In this document: positions 2,614 to 20,623 of the stretch, one piece after another
Numbering within the stretch: position 1 is the first letter of the stretch
Layout: each line of letters starts with the position of its first letter
Source: a virus
Direction: 5' to 3' (one strand)
Length of the DNA stretch: 20,623 nt
IMG/VR virus record: IMGVR_UViG_3300032117_000187
Coordinates: 1-20,623 of that record
Made by a program: the position numbers and the translations under genes
Notes under the pieces: model-generated
Databases searched by the model: none
Seen by the model: the letters and a program-made list of their open reading frames with translations, nothing else
Told to the model about the DNA's origin: nothing

Positions 2614-5600
2614 TAATATGTGCCTACGATAGTGTTGCCAAGATTAAGTTGTGCTGCTGTTACTGCGCTAATAATATCTACGTCATTGACCGTTGCTGCA
2701 CTTGTAATAATTTCCCAAGGTTCAGCGTTAATCTGGAAGTAGTTACCAAATACCAAGTTGTCGTCTGCTGGCACAATTAACACACTAGCAATAGTAGGAA
2801 CTAAACTTGTATGTAGGTATGCCGCTAATTCACTAAAATAGAATGTGTCACCAAAGTCCCAGTTTGCAATGTTAAAGTATGCGTTGATCGCAGCAATAAC
2901 CTGACTCTTAACTTCGTTAGGTGTAATACTAACTGCAGGGTTAATAACAACCTGGAAGCGAGCACGTAAACTAGGATCAGCTTTAGATCCAAAGAGTGGT
3001 TTAAATTTAGCAGGATTGTAAATTAAACTATCACTAACTGTTTTAAAATTGTCTAATTTACTATAGGCAATTTCTAAACTACTTGAAGTTGGTGCAACAG
3101 GCTCTACTAGAGTACCTGTTAAATCCTGTATCCAATTCATATAGCTTGTTGTGTAGTCTGCTGTTAATACATATAGGTCAATCAAGTTAACCGGTGTAGG
3201 ATCAACACGATTACGATTTGGGCTATTGTGTTTATACTGGAAATATAGACTGCTACGTGATGTTGCGGTGTTGGCAACTGTAGTATATAAATCAGGATTG
3301 TCTGGTGTGCCGGTCATTTGTGTTTGCGGGAACGATACTAAAATTTCATTGCGACTAACATAGCCATCGTTTGCTGTGATGACATCGTATATATCCCAGA
3401 TAATATCTGTGCCAAGCGGGGTACTATTACCAGGGTGTGAGTTTATCTTTAAGATTTTAATTAAGTCAGCAACAGGAGCACCAATTGTTGAATCATAAAC
3501 TTTAACAGTTGGATCAAAGTAGAAATTGGTCTCAGATGCACTAGCAAAACTATACTGTAATGTTTTGTATTGAATATTGTATAAGCCGGCATTGTATGTA
3601 AACTTCAATAACCAATTGGTACTTGAACCAATTTGACTTGGAGGAATATTGGCCCACACTTGATTTACTTGATCAAAATATAAGCCAAAGTTGACCATTG
3701 ACTGAATTTGTGTGGCTATAGTTGTAATCACCGATCCAGTTAAATCATTTTTAATTGGAGGAATAATAGAACTTACAATAGATCCGGTTGGTACAACCAT
3801 GCCAAAGTAGGTTTGTGAATTGCCAACTACGTTAGTAACTGACGAATAGAATGATGTTGCATTTGAATTGGCATTTGTTAGGAACTTTACGCTTGATCCT
3901 GTTGTGACATATTTTAAATTGCCACTGGCAACATTGCCCACGTTGATTACGTTACCATTGTAGGTTAAATTACCGTAACTACTTGATGTAGTATTACCTG
4001 TTTGCACAAAAGTAACATTACTGTGCGTTGGCGCATAGCGTGGATAATTTGCATAGTAGTAGTTTGTCATTCCGGTAGAACTTAATACAGGAATAACGTC
4101 ATTATAGATTGCAGAGTAGATATCGTTAGTGGTTAAGAAACTAAATGTTTCTGACCCAGTGATAGCATTGGCATACAATATACCATCGTCGGCAAAAATA
4201 TTTGTGCTACTAAAACTGCCGGTTGTATCTAGCGTATCAAGATATAGACTTACACCACTACTTGTGCGGTTAACTGCTTTAATTTTTTGTATACTAGTAA
4301 AGTTTGTTAATGGAAAGATATTATAATCTTCACCAGTGATCATACGATTCTGTGTATAATAATTTTGCGGTGCGTATGTTTTAATACTTTGTAAACTTTG
4401 AGTAGCTGTTGCATTGGTTACAGTATATTGTAAACTAGCCACAACTGTTAGAGTCTGTCCGTTACCATGAGCATCAACATAGGGAATAGCAACTACAACG
4501 TTTGATAAATCATCTGGAGTAATAGTGTATGAAAGACCATTGCTTGTGCGGAAGTAAAAATTAAATGCGCCTTGCGGAATGTTGGCAAAAGAGCCGTCAC
4601 CGAACACTAAACTGACCTGGTCATTGTTTAATGTATTAACTTGGTACAAGTTCTTGTTTGTTGATTGGTTAAAAACAACATTGATACCGGGTAGCGCAGG
4701 CACTTGAGTCCATAGTGTTTGCGGAACATTGTTTACGTTTAAGCTATACAACCAGCCATCGGAATTATTAATGTTGTTTGTTGCAACTGTAACAAAGTTG
4801 TTTGGAATAGCATTTTGTATTTTAAAGTTGGTGGCCTGCATACTTCCCTGTTTAAAGTACAAGAAGAAGCCAGTGTTATTACTGTTATTACCATTGTTGT
4901 CGTTTTGGTAAAGAATGTTAAATTGACCCAAGTTAGTTGGGTCGCGCTCATATATGTAACTTTGACCTAGTGTACTTGCACTAACAGCTTCAAAGTTAAC
5001 TTTTGTATTCTGAATATTAACACTAAATGGTGCCAGGGGTAATGTATTGCGATTTAAACTAATTGTGTATTCACTAGTTTGTACGCCATTGATAGCCTGT
5101 GTGTTACCAGGTTTGCCGATTGCTTGGTTAGTAACCAAGGTAGCATTTAAAATTGTAGTGAACTGCTCTAACCAATTGGTATTGGTTAAATCGTTCCAAT
5201 AAATGGTAGTATTGGCTAGACTATTGCCGTTACTGTCAGTGATGTTCTCTGTTGTACTGATACTGTTAAATTTAATTAGACCGCTTGCGCTTTGTGTACG
5301 GGTCGGATTATAGCTCAACATACGTGCTAATTTTAGAATACTGTCGCGACGTTGCGCTGTATCAATAAAGTTTTCACGTGCGTTTAGATCTGTGCGGAAA
5401 CTCAAACTTTGACCCAAGAACGCAATCATATCAATCAGTGCCAGGTACTCACTTGATTCTAAGAAGTCATTGAATGTTTCTGGATAATAGGTCTGCAGGT
5501 AGTTGATCATTGAGTTACGAAGTGTTTCAAAGTCGTAACTAGTGAAGTCCGCATTAGTAAAGCTCTGATAGACCTTAGTCCAGTCCTGGTTTACTAAAAG

Positions 5601-5627
5601 ATTTGTTTGACGTGTTGTTTGTGCCAT
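2613..5627 (-). CDS. 6: Baseplate wedge protein gp6 (baseplate J-like)
   Basis: This 1004-residue protein is the wedge subunit that in T4 forms the continuous ring around the baseplate hub. The N-terminal 130 residues are diagnostic of the T4-like gp6 family: FLESSEYLALIDMIAFLGQ, then SFRTDLNARENFIDTAQRR, then ILKLARMLSYNP. It is much longer than T4 gp6 (about 660 residues). The extra length is Asn/Thr/Ser-rich material in the middle, roughly residues 200-750, as seen in other exo-T-even phages. The C-terminal 200 residues (ARFQVVINPAVSITPNEVKSQ, then a run around DFGDTFYFSELAAYL) look like the conserved gp6 dimerisation part. The start is preceded by a TAGGTAAA ribosome site and by a late promoter 22 bases upstream. 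The stop overlaps the next gene as TAATG. Confidence 0.93.
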   Translation of the reverse strand: MAQTTRQTNLLVNQDWTKVYQSFTNADFTSYDFETLRNSMINYLQTYYPETFNDFLESSEYLALIDMIAFLGQSLSFRTDLNARENFIDTAQRRDSILKLARMLSYNPTRTQSASGLIKFNSISTTENITDSNGNSLANTTIYWNDLTNTNWLEQFTTILNATLVTNQAIGKPGNTQAINGVQTSEYTISLNRNTLPLAPFSVNIQNTKVNFEAVSASTLGQSYIYERDPTNLGQFNILYQNDNNGNNSNNTGFFLYFKQGSMQATNFKIQNAIPNNFVTVATNNINNSDGWLYSLNVNNVPQTLWTQVPALPGINVVFNQSTNKNLYQVNTLNNDQVSLVFGDGSFANIPQGAFNFYFRTSNGLSYTITPDDLSNVVVAIPYVDAHGNGQTLTVVASLQYTVTNATATQSLQSIKTYAPQNYYTQNRMITGEDYNIFPLTNFTSIQKIKAVNRTSSGVSLYLDTLDTTGSFSSTNIFADDGILYANAITGSETFSFLTTNDIYSAIYNDVIPVLSSTGMTNYYYANYPRYAPTHSNVTFVQTGNTTSSSYGNLTYNGNVINVGNVASGNLKYVTTGSSVKFLTNANSNATSFYSSVTNVVGNSQTYFGMVVPTGSIVSSIIPPIKNDLTGSVITTIATQIQSMVNFGLYFDQVNQVWANIPPSQIGSSTNWLLKFTYNAGLYNIQYKTLQYSFASASETNFYFDPTVKVYDSTIGAPVADLIKILKINSHPGNSTPLGTDIIWDIYDVITANDGYVSRNEILVSFPQTQMTGTPDNPDLYTTVANTATSRSSLYFQYKHNSPNRNRVDPTPVNLIDLYVLTADYTTSYMNWIQDLTGTLVEPVAPTSSSLEIAYSKLDNFKTVSDSLIYNPAKFKPLFGSKADPSLRARFQVVINPAVSITPNEVKSQVIAAINAYFNIANWDFGDTFYFSELAAYLHTSLVPTIASVLIVPADDNLVFGNYFQINAEPWEIITSAATVNDVDIISAVTAAQLNLGNTIVGTY

Positions 5628-5649
5628 ATTAATGTTTACCTATATTGTA

Positions 5650-5659
5650 TATTTATCGG
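5650..5659 (-). promoter_or_regulatory. Late promoter upstream of gp6
   Basis: On the minus strand this reads CCGATAAATA, containing the NATAAATA late-promoter core known from T4 and cyanophages and recognised by the gp55 sigma factor. It lies 22 bases before the gp6 ATG in the 49-base gap after gp25. The same 10-mer occurs at 11872-11881 and 20534-20543. Confidence 0.8.
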
Positions 5660-5676
5660 CAAAATAATATGGGCAG

Positions 5677-6054
5677 TTAATTCGTGGTCAAAGTTGATGC
5701 ATTTTTATTAAAGTTTAGCAGAATAGTGTCTGATTGATTTGACGGGATATACGATAGAGATATTTGAATTTGCAATCCATTGGTTTGCTGTGTAACATTT
5801 ATACTAGAAACAGTTAATCTAGGATCATAACTAACAATTCGTTTGATATCCGACGTGATAATGTCTTGAGTTGTTTCGTTTAATGGCTCAAACAGCTGAT
5901 CCCAGATGATTGTGCCAAAATTTGGTTGCATTAGCTTAGATCCTTTACGGATATTAAAGTAATTCATTAAATCTTGTTTGGCCAGTGCATAGTCCGTTAG
6001 GCTATAACGTTTTTTGTTAACTAAGGTGCTAAATCCGCGATATACTATTGCCAT
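5677..6054 (-). CDS. 25: Baseplate wedge protein gp25 (GPW/gp25 family)
   Basis: This 125-residue protein is close in length to T4 gp25 (132 residues). The family links the inner wedge to the hub and sheath and has a counterpart in type VI secretion (TssE). Recognisable segments are NYFNIRKGSKLMQPNFGTIIW at residues 31-51, the following FEPLNETTQDIITSDI, and YDPRLTVSSINV near residue 75-86. The DPR tripeptide sits where the conserved acidic-Pro-Arg motif of the family lies. The start has the spacing and sequence context AGGTAAATATTAATATG, nearly identical to that before gp6. It lies 8 bases after the lysozyme-like gene and 49 bases before gp6, matching the wedge gene cluster of other T4-like phages. 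Confidence 0.93.
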   Translation of the reverse strand: MAIVYRGFSTLVNKKRYSLTDYALAKQDLMNYFNIRKGSKLMQPNFGTIIWDQLFEPLNETTQDIITSDIKRIVSYDPRLTVSSINVTQQTNGLQIQISLSYIPSNQSDTILLNFNKNASTLTTN

Positions 6055-11983: not shown

Positions 11984-12877
11984 ATGGCTCGCAATAATTA
12001 TCTGAATAACAAAGATATTCTCAAAGAAATTCACAAAAGCAAAAACACTTACTGCCACTATACAGACCCATCTGTTGCAGATTATGATATGATTTTGCCA
12101 GACGTAAGCAAAATTAATAAAAAGAATATCATGCAAGCACGTAAAGATCGTGCTGTCCGATTGCAAAAATTAGCCCACGAAGCCGCTAGTGCAGATGGTA
12201 CTAAGCATAAAATGGACGAATTTGAAATTAAATTAAAAGAGATTGCCGATACCGATGTTGTGTTCCGTGTAATGACATGGGACCATATTCCTGTAGACGA
12301 TGTTAAAAGCCGTAAAGCTGCTGTCAAGGCAATGGAATTAGAAGATGATGGTCCTGCTCGTTCAGAATATGATGACGACGAATTAGATATTGCAGGTAAT
12401 ACCAAATACGTTAAAGTAAATTTTCCACCATTTGAACATTTTCAAGTTACCGAAGATGGTACTCCTGTGCTAGTAGGACGTAGTCACTGGAAAGGTGATT
12501 TTGTTGCTGGTGTGTTTAGCCGCGAACACGGTAAAATGACACCAAAACTTGCTCATATGTTTATTAAGCTGTGCGAGCGTTATGCTACACGCTCTAACTG
12601 GAGAGGATATACATACAATGATGAGATGCGTAGCCAAGCATTGCTACAACTATCGCAAATTGGACTACAGTTCGACGAGTTTAAGAGCCAGAACCCTTTT
12701 GCTTATTATACTGCCGCTATCACTAATAGTTTTACTCGTGTTCTTAACATAGAAAAGCGTAACCAAAACTTACGCGATGATATTTTAGAAATGAATAATT
12801 TAACGCCTAGTTACACACGCCAGGGACAAAAGATTAGTTCCACATCGGGTGGCAGCGACGGCGGATACGATGATTGA
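11984..12877 (+). CDS. 55: Late-transcription sigma factor gp55, enlarged form
   Basis: In T4, gp55 is the highly diverged sigma-70-family protein that binds host RNA polymerase core and recognises the late promoter octamer. Two T4-like blocks are visible: NNYLNNKDILKEIHKSK at 4-20 (T4 has YVNNKELLQAI), and the sigma region 2-like segment 187-262 with SNWRGYTYNDEMRSQALLQL and FKSQNPFAYYTAAITNSF. At 297 residues it is far longer than T4 gp55 (about 185); the extra part is about 110-150 residues between the two blocks, with an acidic patch at 119-136 (EDDGPARSEYDDDELDIA). The C-terminus is polar (GGSDGGYDD), without the hydrophobic clamp-binding peptide that I recall for T4. Ribosome site AAAGGA lies 8 bases before the ATG. 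The late promoters listed here are its probable targets. Confidence 0.9.
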   Translation: MARNNYLNNKDILKEIHKSKNTYCHYTDPSVADYDMILPDVSKINKKNIMQARKDRAVRLQKLAHEAASADGTKHKMDEFEIKLKEIADTDVVFRVMTWDHIPVDDVKSRKAAVKAMELEDDGPARSEYDDDELDIAGNTKYVKVNFPPFEHFQVTEDGTPVLVGRSHWKGDFVAGVFSREHGKMTPKLAHMFIKLCERYATRSNWRGYTYNDEMRSQALLQLSQIGLQFDEFKSQNPFAYYTAAITNSFTRVLNIEKRNQNLRDDILEMNNLTPSYTRQGQKISSTSGGSDGGYDD

Positions 12878-13050
12878 AGTACCTAGTACTTTTATTACTC
12901 TTACCATTATCTGGGTGTAGTAACTTACACTCAGATTTCCCCGAAGCCTGTGTAGTAGGAGTACCTACCAATAAGAACTGTTTTTCCTTAGGTGGCGGCC
13001 CAGGCGGTATTAAACTTGGGCCATTTAACATAGTCGATCACCAATTCTAA
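12874..13050 (+). CDS. Small phage lipoprotein, TTG start
   Basis: The frame from TTG at 12874 to TAA at 13050 encodes 58 residues beginning MKYLVLLLLLPLSGCSNLHS. It has a charged N-terminus (Lys2), a hydrophobic core of Leu/Val, and a textbook lipobox LSGC with Cys15, so signal peptidase II cleavage and lipid attachment are expected. The mature part of 44 residues has two further cysteines and a Gly-rich patch (LGGGPGGIKLGPF). The TTG overlaps the gp55 stop (TTGA), implying coupling. Seen: signal peptide and lipobox. Unknown: function. Outer-membrane lipoproteins of phages can act in lysis (spanin subunit) or superinfection exclusion, but no partner gene is visible and it lacks the Pro-rich look of Rz1. 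Confidence 0.78.
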   Translation: MKYLVLLLLLPLSGCSNLHSDFPEACVVGVPTNKNCFSLGGGPGGIKLGPFNIVDHQF

Positions 13051-13066
13051 TTGAGCAAAATAAGAT

Positions 13067-13095
13067 TTGAGTTTACTCAATCTTTCCTCTATACT
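13067..13095 (+). promoter_or_regulatory. Possible sigma-70-like promoter before gp47
   Basis: TTGAGT at 13067-13072 and TATACT at 13090-13095 are separated by exactly 17 bases. The gp47 ATG at 13103 is only 7 bases beyond the -10 box, so a transcript from here would have essentially no leader. The TTGAG/CTCAA inverted repeat at 13067-13080 overlaps the -35 box. It could be a chance match. Confidence 0.4.
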
Positions 13096-13102
13096 GATTA
13101 TT

Positions 13103-14119
13103 ATGACAAATCTATTTAAAAAAGCTGCAATCTTTACTGACATACACTTTGGGTTGAAGTCTAATAGTACGCTACACAATGAAGACTGTTTAGCATTTGT
13201 AAAATGGGCCACTGCCAAAGCCAAAGAAGAAGGATGCGAAACCTGTTTATTCTTGGGAGATTGGCATAACAATAGAGCAAGTCTTAATATTTTAACCTTA
13301 GGCTACAGCCTACGTGCATTAGAGCACCTAAATGAAAACTTTGACAATACTTACTTCATTCCCGGCAATCATGATCTTTATTATCGCGACAAGCGTGACG
13401 TACAGTCTGTGGAATGGGCCAAGCACCTCAGCAATATACACATTTGCAACGATTGGACTACTTTCGGGGATGTCACTATTGCTCCGTGGCTGGTTGGAGA
13501 TGACCACAAGCGACTTAAAAAATTAAAAGGTAAGTACATGTTTGGGCACTTTGAGTTGCCCGGATATTTAATGAATGCCATGGTTGCTATGCCGGACCAT
13601 GGTGAGATCACCGGAGATGATATGCAAGGGTTTGAGCATGTTTTTTCTGGCCACTTTCACAAACGACAAACCCAGCGCAACGTTACCTATATTGGTAATG
13701 CGTTCCCACATAACTATGCCGATGCCGGCGATGATGATAGAGGGTTAACTATTTTAGAATGGGACAAGCCCCCTGTATACCATAGTTGGCCCGATCAACC
13801 TATGTATCGTGTGTTCAGCTTAAAGGATGTATTGAATCATACAGAAACTATGCTTAAACCAAATATGCATGTTCGTGTAAACTTAGATGTAGATATTAGC
13901 TACGAAGAAGCAACCTTTATTAAAGAAACATTTATTGAAACATACAAGCTGAGAGAGATTACTCTTATTCCAGCCAAGGTAACTGATCTAACCGATTACG
14001 AAATAGCTGGTAATATTGAATTCGAGTCAGTCGATCAGATTGTGTATAGTCAGTTAAGCAGTATTGACAGTAACCAGTACAATCCAAATTTATTATTGGA
14101 TATCTACAGGAATCTATGA
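13103..14119 (+). CDS. 47: Recombination endonuclease subunit gp47 (Mre11-like)
   Basis: This protein of 338 residues is the nuclease subunit of the gp46/gp47 complex, which resects double-strand ends for recombination-dependent replication. All calcineurin-like phosphoesterase motifs are present: DIH at 13-15, GDWH at 52-55, GNHD at 88-91, GHFE at 148-151 and GHFH at 183-186, the metal-binding Asp and His residues of the Mre11 family. The ATG at 13103 is chosen because the conserved sequence begins within ten residues (AAIFTDIHFG); an upstream in-frame TTG at 13067 would add 12 hydrophobic residues not expected in the family. No clear ribosome site precedes it. Its stop overlaps the next ATG as ATGA. 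gp46 follows one gene later, the usual order being interrupted by the SGNH gene. Confidence 0.93.
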   Translation: MTNLFKKAAIFTDIHFGLKSNSTLHNEDCLAFVKWATAKAKEEGCETCLFLGDWHNNRASLNILTLGYSLRALEHLNENFDNTYFIPGNHDLYYRDKRDVQSVEWAKHLSNIHICNDWTTFGDVTIAPWLVGDDHKRLKKLKGKYMFGHFELPGYLMNAMVAMPDHGEITGDDMQGFEHVFSGHFHKRQTQRNVTYIGNAFPHNYADAGDDDRGLTILEWDKPPVYHSWPDQPMYRVFSLKDVLNHTETMLKPNMHVRVNLDVDISYEEATFIKETFIETYKLREITLIPAKVTDLTDYEIAGNIEFESVDQIVYSQLSSIDSNQYNPNLLLDIYRNL

Positions 14120-14829
14120 GGATTTATACCAACGGATGTTCATTTACTTACGGTGACGAATTACAGTCACCCGATACATCTGCGTGGCCAGTGCTGTTAG
14201 GTAATCTATTAGGTGCAACAACTGTCAACGATGGGGTGAGTGGAGGTACAAATTATAGAACTATATACCGCACCATTAAGCAATATCAACATAATTTTGA
14301 TTTGTACGTTATAGCATGGACCACTAATACCAGATTTACTTTTTATAAGTCAGACAACAATTACGAGATAAACTTTAATCCGGCATTGCAAAACAGCATG
14401 TACGGTAATAGCTCATTTTATCATAATTGGGGCGAGACCCTATACAATGTTTGGTACAACGAGCTGTATGCTTTTAAATTATGGCTTCAGCAAATTATAC
14501 AATTACAATCTTTTATCAAAGCACCATGTCTGATGATCAATACAATGCATAATAATATAGGTAAATGGTTTGCACCTAAGGAGCAGTTTATAGATTCTGT
14601 CAGAGAGTTAATCAATTTTAATATCATGACTGACGAACAAATATTTGACGAATACAACGAAATACAGTACTATGTACAACTAATCGACACATCAATGTTT
14701 TATAATTGGAATGCGTTTTATATTCAAGATTTATGTAACAAATTTCCGTGTGGACCAAATGGACACATATTAGAAGCTGGTCACACTCACTTGGCAGAAT
14801 TATTATATAATCACTTATGTTTAAAATAA
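14116..14829 (+). CDS. SGNH/GDSL-like hydrolase inserted between gp47 and gp46
   Basis: This protein of 237 residues starts MRIYTNGCSFTYGDEL. GCSFTYG at 7-13 matches block I of SGNH hydrolases, with Ser9 as candidate nucleophile, and TVNDGVSGGTNYRTI at 36-50 supplies the block II Gly. YVIAWTTNTRFTF near 69-81 stands at block III with Asn. Near the C-terminus GPNGHILEAGHTHLAELL (213-230) resembles block V, but the usual Asp three residues before the His is Pro214, so the DxxH pair is incomplete unless His223 or His225 serves. The family includes esterases, lipases and carbohydrate deacetylases; the substrate cannot be told. It overlaps gp47 by 4 bases and gp46 by 13, so it is fully inside the recombination operon. 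Confidence 0.75.
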   Translation: MRIYTNGCSFTYGDELQSPDTSAWPVLLGNLLGATTVNDGVSGGTNYRTIYRTIKQYQHNFDLYVIAWTTNTRFTFYKSDNNYEINFNPALQNSMYGNSSFYHNWGETLYNVWYNELYAFKLWLQQIIQLQSFIKAPCLMINTMHNNIGKWFAPKEQFIDSVRELINFNIMTDEQIFDEYNEIQYYVQLIDTSMFYNWNAFYIQDLCNKFPCGPNGHILEAGHTHLAELLYNHLCLK

Positions 14830-16586
14830 AAGATTTAACCGTTAAGAACTTTATGAGCGTGGGTAATACTACCCAGGCTGTTAACTTTGACCGGCAAGAC
14901 TTAACCCTGGTACTAGGTGAAAACTTGGACCTGGGTGGCGACGATTCTGGTGCACGGAATGGCACAGGTAAGACTACTATTATTAATGCCTTAAGTTTTG
15001 CACTTTACGGCAATGCTCTTACTAACATTAAGAAAGATAACTTAATCAATAAGACCAATGGTAAAAACATGATGGTTTGTATTGATTTTGAAAAAGACGG
15101 AGTTAACTACCGCATTGAACGTGGGCGCAAGCCAAATATAATGAAGTTCTTTGTGGGTGATACAGAAAAAGAAATCACCGATGATGCACAGGGCGATAGT
15201 AGAGAAACACAAGCAGAGATAGAACGTATGTTGGGTATGAGCCACGATATGTTCAAGCATATTGTAGCACTAAACACCTACACTGAACCGTTCCTTAGTT
15301 TAAGATCAAACGATCAACGTACTATCATTGAACAGTTACTGGGCATTACTTTATTGTCAGAAAAAGCAGATAGTTTAAAAGAGCTAAACAAAAAAACTAA
15401 GGATGCTATTACCTCAGAGGAGTTCCGCATTAAGGCCGTAACAGATGCCAACGTTCGTATACAAGAACAGATCGAAGCATTGAAGCGTAGACAAACCCTG
15501 TGGAACAACAAGCACGATGAAGAGATTAACAAGACACAAGATGCGATCGAAGAGCTTCAGAAGATCGATATCCAGGCCGAGATTCAGGCACACCAAGCGT
15601 TCAAAGCCTGGGATCAGACTCGAAAGGATCTCAATGAATTATCTTCGGCGATTAGCCGTACCAAATTGGACCGTAACCGCGAGGAGAAAACGATTAGCAA
15701 GATATCAGCAGAACTTGTTTCGTTGGAAAGTCATACGTGCCATACGTGCGGACAAGAGTTCCATGACGAAAAGCACCAACAGGTCCTGGGATCAAAGCAG
15801 AGAGAATTATCAGTGGCACGGGAGAGTGCGGAATCTCATGTTGCCACTTTGGCTGAGTTACAACAAGCTGAGTCTGGGCTGGGCAAACTCGGCACCCGTC
15901 CAGTAATGTTCTACGATAAAGAAGCGGATGCTATTCATCATCAAGCCACGGTAGATAATTTAATTAAACAATTAACTGCCAAAGCCGCAGAGTCGGATCC
16001 TTATAATGAGCAAATTGCAGAAATGCAAACTACAGCATTAGAAGAAGTTACATATGATGTTATTAACGAGTTATCTAACTTAAAAGATCACCAAGAATTC
16101 TTGCTTAAACTGTTAACAAACAAAGATTCGTTTATTCGTAAGCGTATCATTGATCAGAATTTAAGTTATTTAAATGCCAGATTAGGGCAGTACCTGGATC
16201 GCATCGGCTTACCACACACAGTTAAGTTTAATAATGATCTGAGTGTAAGCATTACAGAACTGGGACGTGACCTAGACTTTGATAATTTATCCAGAGGCGA
16301 GCGCAATAGACTTATCTTATCTCTATCCTGGTCGTTCCGTGATGTATGGGAAAGTTTATATCAACCAATTAACTTATTGTTTATTGACGAGCTAATCGAT
16401 TCGGGCATGGACAGTAACGGTGTTGAAAATAGTTTAAGTATTCTTAAAAAGATGAGCCGTGAAGCCAACAAGTCAATTTGGTTAGTATCTCACAAAGACG
16501 AACTGGCAGGCCGGGTAAACAATACCTTGCATGTTATTAAAGAAAACGGATACACAAGTTATAATACGGACGTAGACATTGTTTAA
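14817..16586 (+). CDS. 46: Recombination endonuclease subunit gp46 (Rad50-like)
   Basis: This SMC/Rad50-type ATPase of 589 residues partners gp47 in DNA end resection. Walker A is GARNGTGKTT at 45-54, preceded by an insert (GENLDLGGDDS) compared with T4 gp46. Coiled coil spans about 180-300 and 320-440 around a zinc hook CHTCG with Cys308 and Cys311. The C-terminal ATPase half has signature LSRGE at 491-495, Walker B LLFIDE at 520-525, D-loop SGMD, and switch SH at 558-559. T4 gp46 has about 560 residues, so it is full length. The start ATG at 14817 lies inside the end of the SGNH gene, and the end overlaps the TTG start of the next gene by 8 bases. The hook-proximal DNA, about 15470-15905, is clearly richer in G+C than the flanks. 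Confidence 0.95.
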   Translation: MFKIKDLTVKNFMSVGNTTQAVNFDRQDLTLVLGENLDLGGDDSGARNGTGKTTIINALSFALYGNALTNIKKDNLINKTNGKNMMVCIDFEKDGVNYRIERGRKPNIMKFFVGDTEKEITDDAQGDSRETQAEIERMLGMSHDMFKHIVALNTYTEPFLSLRSNDQRTIIEQLLGITLLSEKADSLKELNKKTKDAITSEEFRIKAVTDANVRIQEQIEALKRRQTLWNNKHDEEINKTQDAIEELQKIDIQAEIQAHQAFKAWDQTRKDLNELSSAISRTKLDRNREEKTISKISAELVSLESHTCHTCGQEFHDEKHQQVLGSKQRELSVARESAESHVATLAELQQAESGLGKLGTRPVMFYDKEADAIHHQATVDNLIKQLTAKAAESDPYNEQIAEMQTTALEEVTYDVINELSNLKDHQEFLLKLLTNKDSFIRKRIIDQNLSYLNARLGQYLDRIGLPHTVKFNNDLSVSITELGRDLDFDNLSRGERNRLILSLSWSFRDVWESLYQPINLLFIDELIDSGMDSNGVENSLSILKKMSREANKSIWLVSHKDELAGRVNNTLHVIKENGYTSYNTDVDIV

Positions 16587-17451
16587 CAGAGATATAAAAG
16601 TACTGCACATTGAGCCAACTGATGTTTGTCAGGCGGCCTGTGCCCTTTGCGCTCGTGAGATCGATCCTGCGTTTGATAAAACTATCAAACATCATTTATC
16701 TGTTGATCAAATTAAAGAAAAGTTTAGCGAAGACTTTATTCGCGGGCTGGACAAAATGTTTATGTGTGGTAACTACGGTGATCCTGCCGCAGGCAAATAC
16801 ACATTAGAAATTTTTGAATATTTTAGAAGTATCAATCCTGATATTACCTTAGGTATGAATACCAACGGTGGATTACAAAGTATGACCTGGTGGATTAAAC
16901 TAGCACGATTGCTCAGAAAGCCAAACGATTTTGTTGTGTTCAGTATAGACGGGTTAGAAGATACCAACCACATATACCGCAAAAACGTTAGTTGGGAAGT
17001 GCTAGAAGCCAACGTAGCATCATTTATTGCTGCCGGTGGCCCTGCCCACTGGGACATGCTGGTCTACAAACACAATGAACATCAAGTTGATGCTTGCGAA
17101 GCACTAGCAAAACGAATGAAGTTCAAATGGTTCCGTGCCAAGGTTAGCAAGCGAGAATATATTAACGGGCTAGAGGAACCAGCCAATTGGCAACGACCAA
17201 CATACACCCCAGGTAAAATCGATTGTCACGCACTGGCAGAAGCAAGCATTTACATAGATGCACAAGGCAATATTAGTCCTTGTTGCTGGTTAGGCGCAAG
17301 GCAACAAGATTTTATCACAGATATTAATCAAGTTGCAATACACTGGGATAACCCAGAATTGGCAGATCCTGTGTGTGTTATCACTTGCACCGCCAAGGCC
17401 AATATAACTGTATTTGAAAGTCAATGGCAACGCGAGGTTGAACTATGCTAG
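16579..17451 (+). CDS. Radical-SAM protein 1 with SPASM-like C-terminus
   Basis: This protein of 290 residues carries the radical SAM motif CxxxCxxC at Cys17, Cys21 and Cys24 (CQAACALCARE), which binds a 4Fe-4S cluster that cleaves S-adenosylmethionine. CGNYGDP at 63-69 takes the place of the GGE-type SAM-binding motif. Six more cysteines lie in the C-terminal 75 residues: Cys216, the pair Cys235-Cys236 in SPCCW, Cys266, Cys270 and Cys290. The pattern CHALAEASIYIDAQGNISPCC is typical of SPASM/twitch domains that hold an auxiliary cluster and usually act on peptides or proteins. The start is a TTG overlapping the end of gp46; no later ATG keeps the cluster motif. It is homologous to the next gene by eye. 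The substrate is unknown. Confidence 0.85.
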   Translation: MFNRDIKVLHIEPTDVCQAACALCAREIDPAFDKTIKHHLSVDQIKEKFSEDFIRGLDKMFMCGNYGDPAAGKYTLEIFEYFRSINPDITLGMNTNGGLQSMTWWIKLARLLRKPNDFVVFSIDGLEDTNHIYRKNVSWEVLEANVASFIAAGGPAHWDMLVYKHNEHQVDACEALAKRMKFKWFRAKVSKREYINGLEEPANWQRPTYTPGKIDCHALAEASIYIDAQGNISPCCWLGARQQDFITDINQVAIHWDNPELADPVCVITCTAKANITVFESQWQREVELC

Positions 17452-18467
17452 CCACGTGGCATTTTCATATTGAAATATCTAGTAAGTGTACTTTACGGTG
17501 TACTCGGTGTGCCCGACAAGAAGTCCCAGATAGTTTAGTTAATACTGAGTTAGATTTAGAGTTTTTTAAAAGAAATTTTACATCAGAATTTATTCTTGCT
17601 AATGTTGAGAAGATTACGTTCTGCGGCGACGATGGCGATCCTATATATGCACACGATTTAATTGCAGTAATTGAATATATCAAAAGTATTAAACCTGTTG
17701 AGATTGTTATTGTTACCAATGGTAGTCATAAGAAAACAGAATGGTGGACAGCACTAGGCAATGTGCTCACAGAAGTAGATACTGTACACTTTAGCGTGGA
17801 CGGGTATGACAATGCAAGTAACAATTTGTACAGGATAAACAGCGATTTCGTGTCTATTGTCCAAGGTATTGAGGCTCTAAGGGCTACCAGCCGGTGTCGT
17901 TTAGTATGGGCCGCTATTGCGTTTAAATTTAACGAAGATCATATAGAATACATGCAGTCTTTAGCAACAAAATTAGGAATGGATGCTTTCCAATTAACTC
18001 GTAGTACTAAGTTTGGAAAGATATATCCTAGCTACGGAATTGATGATCCCTTACAACCTAGCGATAGATATGTAAGTAGTTCACACAGGTTTGAAAGAGA
18101 TGTTGTAGTATTGACCAAGCGCGGACTTAATGCTGAAGTTAAGCAGATCAATTTGGAATTATTTAAGAAGACCCGGCCGCAAGGCGATGTTGTACCTAAT
18201 GTAGTTCCTTTATGCGAAATTGGTAACAAGGGCTTGTACATAGATGCACAAGGTAGATTGTTTCCTTGTTGTTGGGTAGCTAATCGCTATAGCCACAATA
18301 CAGAATGGCAGGAAATTGCTGGTCGTTTTAATTTAAACACTAGAACTCTTCAAGATGCTGTAAATGACAAGTTTTGGATTAGAGATTTTAAGCAGTTTGC
18401 ATGGCAAGAATGCCGTACTAAGTGCACCAGAAATGTAGTAAATCAAGAATATGCAACTTCCTGGTAG
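17445..18467 (+). CDS. Radical-SAM protein 2 with SPASM-like C-terminus
   Basis: This 340-residue protein is a paralogue of the gene before it. The cluster motif is CTLRCTRC at Cys15, Cys19 and Cys22, followed by CGDDGDP at 60-66 and a NGSHKKTEWW segment equivalent to NGGLQSMTWW in the first protein. The C-terminal domain has Cys257 (CEIGNKGLYIDAQGRLFPCCW), the pair Cys275-Cys276, and Cys323/Cys327 (CRTKC), a SPASM-like arrangement. Compared with its neighbour it has about 50 extra residues, mainly before Cys257. The ATG overlaps the end of the first gene (ATGCTAG, 7 bases), so the two are made together and may form a heterodimer or act in sequence. Substrate unknown; SPASM enzymes known so far mostly modify peptides. 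Confidence 0.86.
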   Translation: MLATWHFHIEISSKCTLRCTRCARQEVPDSLVNTELDLEFFKRNFTSEFILANVEKITFCGDDGDPIYAHDLIAVIEYIKSIKPVEIVIVTNGSHKKTEWWTALGNVLTEVDTVHFSVDGYDNASNNLYRINSDFVSIVQGIEALRATSRCRLVWAAIAFKFNEDHIEYMQSLATKLGMDAFQLTRSTKFGKIYPSYGIDDPLQPSDRYVSSSHRFERDVVVLTKRGLNAEVKQINLELFKKTRPQGDVVPNVVPLCEIGNKGLYIDAQGRLFPCCWVANRYSHNTEWQEIAGRFNLNTRTLQDAVNDKFWIRDFKQFAWQECRTKCTRNVVNQEYATSW

Positions 18468-18486: not shown

Positions 18487-18915
18487 ATGTCATGGCTTTA
18501 CGAAACCTCTCTAGTAGAATCTCTTCCCGAAGATTGTGTCGGATTTGTTTATTTGATTACTAATAAACTGTCTGGTAGAAAATATATTGGCAAAAAGCTC
18601 GCAAAGTTTAGTAAAACAGCGTATAAAGTAGTTAAGCTGAAGAACGGAACTAAGAAGAAAAAGAAGATTCGTAGCAAGATTGACAGTGACTGGCAAGACT
18701 ATTATGGTTCTAGCCCGGAACTAACAAAAGATGTAGTTGCATTGGGGGTCGAAAACTTTAGTAGAGAAATACTTTACTATTGTCGATCAAAATCCGAATG
18801 TAGTTACATTGAAGCAAGAGAACAATTTGCTCGTAGAGTATTAGAAAGCAACGATTATTATAACGGACACATCCAGGTCCGTGTACATGGCTCACACATT
18901 ATCAACAAGATTTAA
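18487..18915 (+). CDS. GIY-YIG nuclease-like protein
   Basis: This protein of 142 residues has a GIY-YIG core: GFVYLITNKLSGRKYIGKK at 19-37, with VYL and YIG as the two signature tripeptides, a central Lys-rich insert (KNGTKKKKKIRSK), DWQDYYGSS, and a likely catalytic Glu in SYIEAREQF, followed by YYNGHI near the C-terminus. Similar short proteins occur in many T4-like phages, some annotated as Seg-like endonucleases, but homing activity has not been shown for this type as far as I know. No extra DNA-binding domain is present, unlike I-TevI. It ends the plus-strand operon, 19 bases after the second radical-SAM gene, and directly borders a gene-free, structure-rich region. Confidence 0.82.
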   Translation: MSWLYETSLVESLPEDCVGFVYLITNKLSGRKYIGKKLAKFSKTAYKVVKLKNGTKKKKKIRSKIDSDWQDYYGSSPELTKDVVALGVENFSREILYYCRSKSECSYIEAREQFARRVLESNDYYNGHIQVRVHGSHIINKI

Positions 18916-19437: not shown

Positions 19438-19668
19438 TTAAAAAAATGGAAGGCCGCTCTCTTTAGTAGTTTCCATATTTTTCTTAATAATGTTTCCTAT
19501 GATTTCTCGTTCTTGAGAACTTAAAGCCATAGCATCATCGTAAGATATACCCCCACGCATATACCAACTCATTCTTAACGCTTCATCTCTAATGGCTCTA
19601 GACTCCTTGTCGTAGTTTTCAACTAACTCTACGATAGCGTCATGGTCTAATGTCAGGAGCCGGATGCG
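19438..19668 (-). CDS. Minus-one frame extension of gp26 (gp51 position), made by predicted frameshifting
   Basis: From the slippery site the minus-one frame is open for 76 codons to TAA at 19438: RIRLLTLDHDAIVEL, then KESRAIRDEALRMSWYMRGG, ending ETTKESGLPFF. It contains no ATG, GTG or TTG before Met at 19572, which would leave only 44 residues, and no ribosome site precedes that ATG. Fusion after residue 285 of gp26 would yield a protein of 361 residues. In T4 gene 51 follows gene 26 directly, so this ORF holds the gp51 place though it is much shorter than T4 gp51 (about 249 residues). The charged helical look and the MRGG/GLPFF motifs, which I recall from small proteins beside gp26 in other T4-like phages, support a real gene. 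Confidence 0.7.
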   Translation of the reverse strand, partial: RIRLLTLDHDAIVELVENYDKESRAIRDEALRMSWYMRGGISYDDAMALSSQEREIIGNIIKKNMETTKESGLPFF

Positions 19669-20522
19669 AAAAAATTTGCGTAATCAAACAGTAAAGGAAT
19701 TTGATATTCTTTCTGGCATTCTGCACATGCAGCAGTTTGTGACTTAACTGCACCCTCAACGTTGATTTCGCTAAGTCTAGCTTGTACTTTCTTTACCACA
19801 TTGCCGTTGGCATTGTTGTAGAATTCTTTAATGAAATCCTTGTCGGTAACTCTTGAGCTGTCTTCTAGTTCGATGTACTCTGTGCTGTCAGCTACAGTAT
19901 CAATTCCGATTTGTATTAAATGCGACATACTACTAGCAATTTCTTTGATACGTTCTGGGCTGTCCGGTTGCTCTAGTGCTTTTGCCATTCTTTCTTCTTC
20001 GAATTGAATAGTGTTTCTGCGATTAACAATAAAGTACGGTTGCGGAATTAGTTTAATTTTTAAATTATCAATTTCAATCTTTTTATTATAGTCTGGGCAA
20101 GTAATACCAGCAAGACTAACTTTTAAATCAATGCCATGCTTGTTAGCAGCACCACAATGTGGGCAATTCGTTTCTACATCCATTTCTGTGCCGTAGCTGG
20201 CAACACGTATGGCAATTAAAATAGTATCAACATCAATACTAGGCATAGCCCACGCATCTCTAATATTTGGGCAACAACTCTGAATTACTTCAACTACACC
20301 GGACCCATTCATAAGTGCGTCTGGGGTGCGTAGTGTAATCTCATCACGAGCAGTCATTGGGTAAATAGGAATCTCCCCGTTAACTGGTAGATCTAAAGAC
20401 CCGTCTTTCCAGTATTGACCGTTTGACGGCAATTTTATATAGGCCGCAGGTTGTCTAAAAAACTTAGACAACGGGTTAAATTTAGGCACTGGTGCTGTAC
20501 TACTGTCTGGTGTATTTTCCAT
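19653..20522 (-). CDS. 26: Baseplate hub assembly protein gp26-like (T4 baseplate family), probable tail chaperone
   Basis: This protein of 289 residues begins with a short polar leader, then FRQPAAYIKLPSNGQYW and PVNGEIPIYPMTARDEITLR at 47-65, TPDALMNGSGVVEVIQSC at 66-83, and VDTILIAIRVASYG at 98-111, all characteristic of the gp26 baseplate-hub family in T4-like phages. CPHC at 120-123 and CAEC at 266-269 form a likely four-cysteine zinc site. In T4 gp26 is needed for hub assembly. The end contains a slippery heptamer four codons before the stop, and a downstream ORF lies in the minus-one frame, which suggests that it is a tail assembly chaperone made in two forms. Transcription is probably late, from TATAAATA at 20553-20560. 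Confidence 0.85.
   Translation of the reverse strand: MENTPDSSTAPVPKFNPLSKFFRQPAAYIKLPSNGQYWKDGSLDLPVNGEIPIYPMTARDEITLRTPDALMNGSGVVEVIQSCCPNIRDAWAMPSIDVDTILIAIRVASYGTEMDVETNCPHCGAANKHGIDLKVSLAGITCPDYNKKIEIDNLKIKLIPQPYFIVNRRNTIQFEEERMAKALEQPDSPERIKEIASSMSHLIQIGIDTVADSTEYIELEDSSRVTDKDFIKEFYNNANGNVVKKVQARLSEINVEGAVKSQTAACAECQKEYQIPLLFDYANFFASGS
19668..19674 (-). promoter_or_regulatory. Slippery heptamer T TTT TTC for minus-one frameshift
   Basis: On the minus strand the gp26 reading frame is AAT TTT TTC GCA. The heptamer T TTT TTC fits the X XXY YYZ rule exactly in phase, and slipping back one base enters the 76-codon open frame. The zero-frame TGA stop follows after four codons. I see no strong hairpin just downstream. 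Confidence 0.65.
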
Positions 20523-20570: not shown

Positions 20571-20623
20571 AACGTGGAAGAAAAACTCTTACAACAAATT
20601 CTTGAAGAACTGCAAAAAGGCGG
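20571..20623 (+). CDS. N-terminus of an unidentified late gene, cut by the right edge
   Basis: A GTG start at 20571 opens a frame reading MEEKKLLQQILEELQKGG up to the edge, with an AGG about nine bases upstream. The pattern is helical and amphipathic, coiled-coil-like. It follows a perfect late promoter, so a structural protein is likely. Tail chaperone genes often neighbour the tape measure gene, but too little is present to name it. Confidence 0.5.

Follow-up and report, generated by a model that had tools for sequence, protein, structure and literature searches.

A -1 programmed frameshift very probably gives rise to a short and a long form of the tail assembly chaperone (TAC) in this T4-like phage. 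The window, the whole stretch of DNA that was analysed, comprises positions 1 to 20,623 of the 20,623-base virus record IMGVR_UViG_3300032117_000187. The locus occupies 19438-20522, the coordinates given in the first-pass annotation, and is on the minus strand, which that annotation had left out. The gp26-like short form (TAC-N, 289 residues, T4_baseplate family) is encoded at 19653..20522 and matches PF12322 with an E value of 1.6e-19 and phrog_150, 'baseplate hub', with an E value of 4.6e-20. On the minus strand its final codons read GCA AAT TTT TTC GCA TCC GGC TCC TGA, so that the heptamer T TTT TTC (19668..19674) has the X XXY YYZ phase and lies four codons upstream of the TGA stop of the unshifted frame (19653..19655), as had been claimed. 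After a slip the -1 frame is open for 76 codons (TAC-C, 19441..19668) and ends at the TAA stop of the long form (19438..19440). The first ATG, GTG or TTG of this frame is an ATG, at codon 33 counted from the slip, as seen in the locus that carries the window sequence (L001, identical across all 1085 bases). The earlier description of a 76-codon frame lacking a usable start until 33 codons in is accordingly correct, as are the predicted products, the fusion of residues 1-285 to the 76 codons giving 361 residues and the unshifted product 289.

In the mechanism that we propose most ribosomes would stop at 19655, releasing the 289-residue short form, TAC-N. Some would pause at T TTT TTC, aided in most clades by a stem that begins about six bases further on. 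The two phenylalanine tRNAs would then re-pair one base back and translation would continue through the 76 codons to the 361-residue long form, TAC-NC. By analogy with lambda G/GT, many short copies and few long ones would cover the tape measure protein and recruit tail tube subunits.

The heptamer is conserved beyond chance. All 97 counted loci with a readable gp26 end carry T TTT TTC or T TTT TTT in phase together with an open -1 frame, and in 60 of them the TAC-C is less than 85% identical. The second form of the heptamer is that seen in XacN1. The loci were taken both from contigs of environmental viruses and from 15 named phages (Atu_ph07, Phosso, PA5oct, Kaldavass, BF, RaK2, 121Q, Munch, GAP32, CBB, Hallingskeid, XaC1, XacN1, SCTP-2 and Vibrio phage 2.275.O), drawn from best-match lists with the best 80 of 576 relatives kept. 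Outside this count are the near-duplicates L002, L006, L007, L010, L015 and L017, each carrying the heptamer, and L003 and L073, which end before the gp26 stop. Because the heptamer is kept in all 97 loci, the codon ahead of the two Phe codons has T as its last base in every case, and does so while encoding eight different residues, whereas 34% of gp26 codons elsewhere end in T. Other Phe-Phe pairs within the same gp26 genes are slippery in only 3/32 cases.

The heptamer is likewise present in 89/89 loci of other T4-like groups, including those of the cyanophage type (86 with TTTTTTC and three with TTTTTTT). These comprise 82 loci from relatives of S-PM2 or of Vibrio phage CZ01 (best 80 of 276 relatives kept) and the named phages C48C1, S-PM2, AS-szw, YB07, Cr30, CZ01 and Melnitz. 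Alignment of the gp26 loci of related phages, the check proposed with the original claim, hence finds both heptamer and phase retained in the two sets. A later fetch of 71 loci, partly overlapping the first set, gave heptamer and open -1 frame in 66 of the 67 readable loci, the remaining four being cut; two of the -1 frames in this fetch run past the contig end. The sole miss, L260, has the heptamer together with two in-frame stops inside gp26. In this locus (4924-5740) the two stops are adjacent and follow gp26 codon 109, the heptamer is intact and the -1 frame is open; its gp26 is either a broken gene or an assembly error. No slippery heptamer was found near the gp26 stop in T4 or Erwinia phage Cronus, each of which was read separately, and in both phages genes 26 and 51 are separate. 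The nearest in-phase heptamer in T4 gp26, TTTAAAG, is 103 bases ahead of the stop, where the -1 frame is closed.

The run of six T residues present in every counted copy might also allow the long form to be made through slippage of RNA polymerase, rather than of the ribosome. Polymerase slippage would not, however, require the codon phase, which is nevertheless kept in 97/97 loci, nor the covarying stem at ribosomal spacing described below, and a run of six bases is short for such an event, making this origin of the long form extremely improbable. Slipping of the ribosome into the -1 frame is the reading that we prefer, and the -1 frame evolves as protein. Beyond the 0-frame stop its median dN/dS is 0.106 (222 pairs from 71 loci) and its pN/pS is 0.18, compared with values of 1.34 and 2.17 for the remaining two frames, with half of all changes in the -1 frame falling at third positions.

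The downstream ORF might instead be a separate small gene, with its own start or translated by re-initiation after the gp26 stop. In some relatives start and stop overlap at the junction, as ATGA, TTGA or TAATG in 15/59 non-redundant loci, as ATGA or TTGA in 15/40 non-redundant loci of another set and as GTGA, TGATG or TAATG in 7/26 loci of a third, and depositors have annotated small genes with internal starts. Where the first start lies no more than 30 nt from the heptamer, on the other hand, a Shine-Dalgarno-like triplet is seldom in reach (3/24, 2/16 and 1/25 in the three sets), and a separate gene would have no need of an invariant in-phase T TTT TTY. Separate starts cannot account for the window, where there is none before codon 33, or for PA5oct, where a search of the -1 frame gave no start codon at all. 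A separate gene is a very unlikely explanation for the conserved arrangement. In those relatives with ATG, GTG or TTG near the junction the small ORF may in addition be translated from an independent start. With the -1 part read as the end of a frameshifted long form, the annotation is corrected for a branch of large T4-like phages. In the records of RaK2 (L019), PA5oct (L014) and PAC2 (L015) the -1 part is unannotated, and in the remaining lineage records examined it is given as a separate small gene with an internal start (18 records examined, among 60 of 64 listed).

It would seem fairly likely that the frameshift is driven by a stem with a fixed 5′ arm, the 3′ partner of which lies within the -1 coding frame and has been exchanged more than once during evolution. 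The stem was assessed by a swap test, asking whether a 12-base arm forms a more stable duplex with the sequence that follows it in its own locus than with that of other loci. In a first scan of 58 of the 97 loci (less than 85% identical and with enough flank), for which no registers were chosen beforehand, the signal is strongest for the arm at +12, counted from the start of the heptamer, with -12.8 kcal/mol for the own sequence versus -8.5 kcal/mol for the swapped (n=58). With a 16-base arm 31/58 loci are in the best 10% (p 4e-10), as compared with p>0.09 for four control arms. The result was replicated on loci fetched after the swap test had been settled on. For the 36 of 66 that were new, less than 85% identical to the first set and mutually, and with enough flank, the values are -14.6 versus -9.6 kcal/mol (p 8e-8), and among 15 other offsets only +36 is below 0.05 (p 0.013). 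In the cyanophage-type set the support from the swap test is weaker (p 0.003, 26 loci). For the lineage as a set the stem starts at +12/+13, about six bases past the heptamer. Structures that stimulate -1 frameshifting are typically about 5-9 bases after the heptamer, and +12 is the spacing expected of such a stimulator.

Folding gave a less sharp picture. The 100-base fold after the slip site, which was judged against shuffles, has a mean z of -1.9 versus dinucleotide shuffles and of -2.05 versus synonymous codon shuffles. The 100-base length is the one at which the fold stands out. The 60-base folds, which were those set against positional controls, have a z of -0.98 versus dinucleotide shuffles, no stronger than that of the control 200 bases down (-0.92), the upstream control being at -0.22. 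The best helices stood out weakly from synonymous codon shuffles, with 14/59 at p<=0.05 (combined p 5e-11), and this count was replaced by the partner-swap test. A Shine-Dalgarno-like stimulator upstream of the heptamer was also considered and was rejected, being present in 3/59 loci.

The position of the 3′ partner varies. Among 51 gapless loci the register i+j is 93 in 17, 107 in 16, 64 in seven and 94 in two, with nine loci showing none of these. The highest scores of the register scan are those of 93 (z 8.6) and 107 (z 5.0), and since registers 134, 86, 64, 140 and 137 reach z 3.2-3.8, these two alone stand out. In another locus set the partners are about 49-62 bases down, and the 3′ arm ends about 45-66, 73, 80-85 or 94-97 bases from the heptamer start, depending on the locus or clade. 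A single universal register was rejected, as registers differ between clades. On a register tree 107 and 64 each fall inside a well-supported group and at least 11 register changes are needed, the tree having been made by a quick method that leaves 20/56 inner branches open, with labels assigned by hand and rows with an unclear stem uncounted. For register 93, represented by 18 sequences including the window, both sides change in 7/13 pairs and 84.6% of cells pair, compared with 24-52% in slid registers; the covariation score was reached by 0/500 shuffles. Within-group register tests gave 0/2000 and 3/2000, and covariation was sought in the register-64 group of seven loci with no evidence found. 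Because the groups were picked by pairing, the within-group tests and the register-93 covariation lean towards structure, and the unselected swap scans of 58 and 36 loci are the cleaner evidence for the stem.

In the window the predicted 5′ arm, GGCTCCTGAC (19652..19661, minus strand), begins six bases past the heptamer, and is supported by the duplex and by the group covariation. Its predicted partner, GTCTAGAGCC (19594..19603, minus strand), is that indicated by the partner swap. GGCTC CT GAC (19661-19652) pairs with GTC TA GAGCC (19603-19594), giving eight pairs with a 2x2 internal loop. The window's own duplex is at -14.4 kcal/mol versus a mean of -9.9 kcal/mol with partners swapped (rank 0.04 for L001). 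Tested against synonymous shuffles, the fold of the window taken alone does not reach significance (p 0.10 and 0.31), and the arm has two possible partners, the helix search giving an alternative 7-bp partner for the 5′ arm at 19601-19607.

No stem was detected by the swap test in L016, L018, L020, L021, L022, L024, L025 and L027 (ranks 0.53-0.91), nor in L009, L059, L063, L081 and L095 (ranks 0.51-0.81). The first eight are the enterobacterial jumbo (RaK2-like) clade with XaC1, plus SCTP-2, and keep the heptamer; RaK2 itself (L019) has a swap rank of 0.11. If a fixed arm has been re-paired with new coding sequence where the stem is present, the ratio of short to long chaperone would thereby have been kept. 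The relatives thus offer many natural sites with a constant slip sequence and a varying downstream stem, and the control of this ratio is therefore directly testable.

The two families matched by the window gp26, PF12322 and phrog_150, are also those matched by both T4 gp26 and T4 gp51. In phrog_150 the coverage of T4 gp51 extends to position 280, while that of T4 gp26 ends at 235, gp51 being a version of the family with an extra C-terminal part. The cyanophage-type -1 ORF resembles this C-terminal extension of gp51 with an hhalign probability of 94% (E 9.5e-8, a single comparison). Since both the families and the extension match, T4 gp26 would correspond to the short form and gp51 to the long form, and it looks as if T4 carries the two as separate genes 26 and 51. 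The chaperone genes of the 2022 study by Vladimirov and colleagues are reportedly 26 and 51, which fits these matches. The TAC-N of the window lineage is related to that of the cyanophage type (E 4.7e-17). Its TAC-C shows a weak similarity to the gp51-type C-terminal part, with hhalign probabilities of 5% and 1% and E values of 0.008 and 0.039, each from a single comparison. The first-pass annotation had called this ORF the gp51-position partner of gp26, and the description is apt for position, the likeness in sequence to the C-terminal part of gp51 being weak.

Within the window gp26 the cysteines of the CxxC pairs C120/C123 and C266/C269 are invariant across 60 aligned sequences. The predicted structure of TAC-N has a mean pLDDT of 87. 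Among predicted structures of viral proteins it has 58 matches at E<=0.001 under various names, including baseplate hub assembly protein and baseplate protein. A Foldseek search of the PDB with this model gave no match at E<=0.001. The match to the HK97 chaperone 2ob9_A is middling (VIA Z 5.7, rmsd 4.4, 100/107 residues, rank 30) and stands among unrelated rows of similar Z. TAC-C is predicted to be helical, and its model likewise gave no match in the PDB by Foldseek at E<=0.001.

A TAC gene usually sits just upstream of the tape measure gene. In the window gp26 is divergent from a long gene on the plus strand that starts at 20574 and runs past the window end (20574..20623); in L001 its frame is open over all 483 codons that precede the edge of the locus. 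At the equivalent position L200 has a gene of 1162 codons, which matches the tape measure family phrog_2276 (E 4e-21) and, better, the endolysin family phrog_873 (E 2e-27), both matches covering roughly residues 600-795. Judged from these matches the divergent neighbour is at most a probable tape measure gene, because the endolysin family matches better over the same region. The neighbour in GAP32 matches phrog_14121, 'virion structural protein', and no family match was found for that in Phosso. In both of these phages the neighbouring gene, for a structural or hypothetical protein, has the portal gene after it. Cr30 has an annotated tape measure gene downstream on the same strand, past the -1 part and one small gene.

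Several other plus-strand ORFs of the window can be tentatively assigned by eye. Those at 11984-16586 resemble gp55, the late sigma factor of T4 type, and the recombination nuclease gp47/gp46. Two consecutive ORFs of 290 and 340 residues at 16579-18467, with the cysteine clusters CQAACALC and CTLRCTRC near their starts, look like radical SAM proteins, and the start of a 142-residue ORF at 18487-18915, GFVYLITNKLSGRKYIGKK, is reminiscent of a GIY-YIG homing endonuclease.

The short and long proteins could be real and yet not be tape measure chaperones, acting for example as structural subunits of the hub. The 'baseplate hub' annotations and the annotation of the CBB copy as a structural protein would be in line with such a role. 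The short/long architecture and the possible tape measure gene adjoining the locus speak against it, as does the earlier work, cited in the excerpts of PMC10885494 and PMC12846349, that assigns chaperone genes in T4-like phages, and a structural role in place of a chaperone one is unlikely. The claim of the first-pass annotation that a short and a long chaperone are made as a pair by -1 frameshifting is supported by the conserved heptamer and its phase, by the coding -1 frame and by the PF12322/phrog_150 family, the assignment of which as TAC rests on the citation of Vladimirov et al. 2022 in this literature.

The same annotation had proposed a link between T4-type genes and the general scheme of frameshifting chaperones. 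The link holds, but it is not new: according to the excerpts of PMC10885494 and PMC12846349, T4-like genes were tied to tail assembly chaperones by Vladimirov, Gautam and Davidson (Virology 2022). Poly-T slip sites in the TAC-N genes of T4-like phages are cited in the excerpts of PMC12846349, and those of PMC10885494 cite some T4-like phages in which the short gene is separate from a fused long gene. The window branch is like the T4-like systems of Vladimirov et al., as these sources describe them, in having short and long chaperone forms, and is unlike them in that its TAC-C has no clear gp51 similarity and its neighbour is divergent and possibly encodes the tape measure protein. T4 genes 26 and 51 share PF12322 and phrog_150 with the window gp26, but are two separate, divergent genes with no heptamer near the gp26 stop.

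The tape measure gene of lambda lies downstream of G/GT within one operon, whereas in the window the candidate is a divergent neighbour. Lambda G/GT is nonetheless similar in arrangement to the window gp26 in that a -1 frameshift late in the short ORF gives the long chaperone, this occurring at a low level near the end of the ORF according to the excerpts of PMC5009743. The TAC of Pseudomonas phage Adele and the Vandenendeviridae is also alike, with a -1 frameshift predicted by comparative genomics and a -1 frame open throughout, in every allele (PMC12846349, in part). It differs in its GTTTTT motif and in the tape measure gene lying downstream of the -1 part (same source), and the excerpts of this paper make no mention of an RNA stem at the locus. 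The excerpts of PMC10885494, PMC12846349 and PMC5009743 describe neither frameshifting of gp26 in jumbo phages of this kind nor a stem whose 5′ arm is fixed while its 3′ partner changes. Judged by these excerpts, the window branch and its jumbo-phage relatives are set apart by the covarying downstream stem present in most clades. A frameshifting TAC in T4-like phages is thus already known, and to this the window branch adds very clear conservation and a predicted stem.
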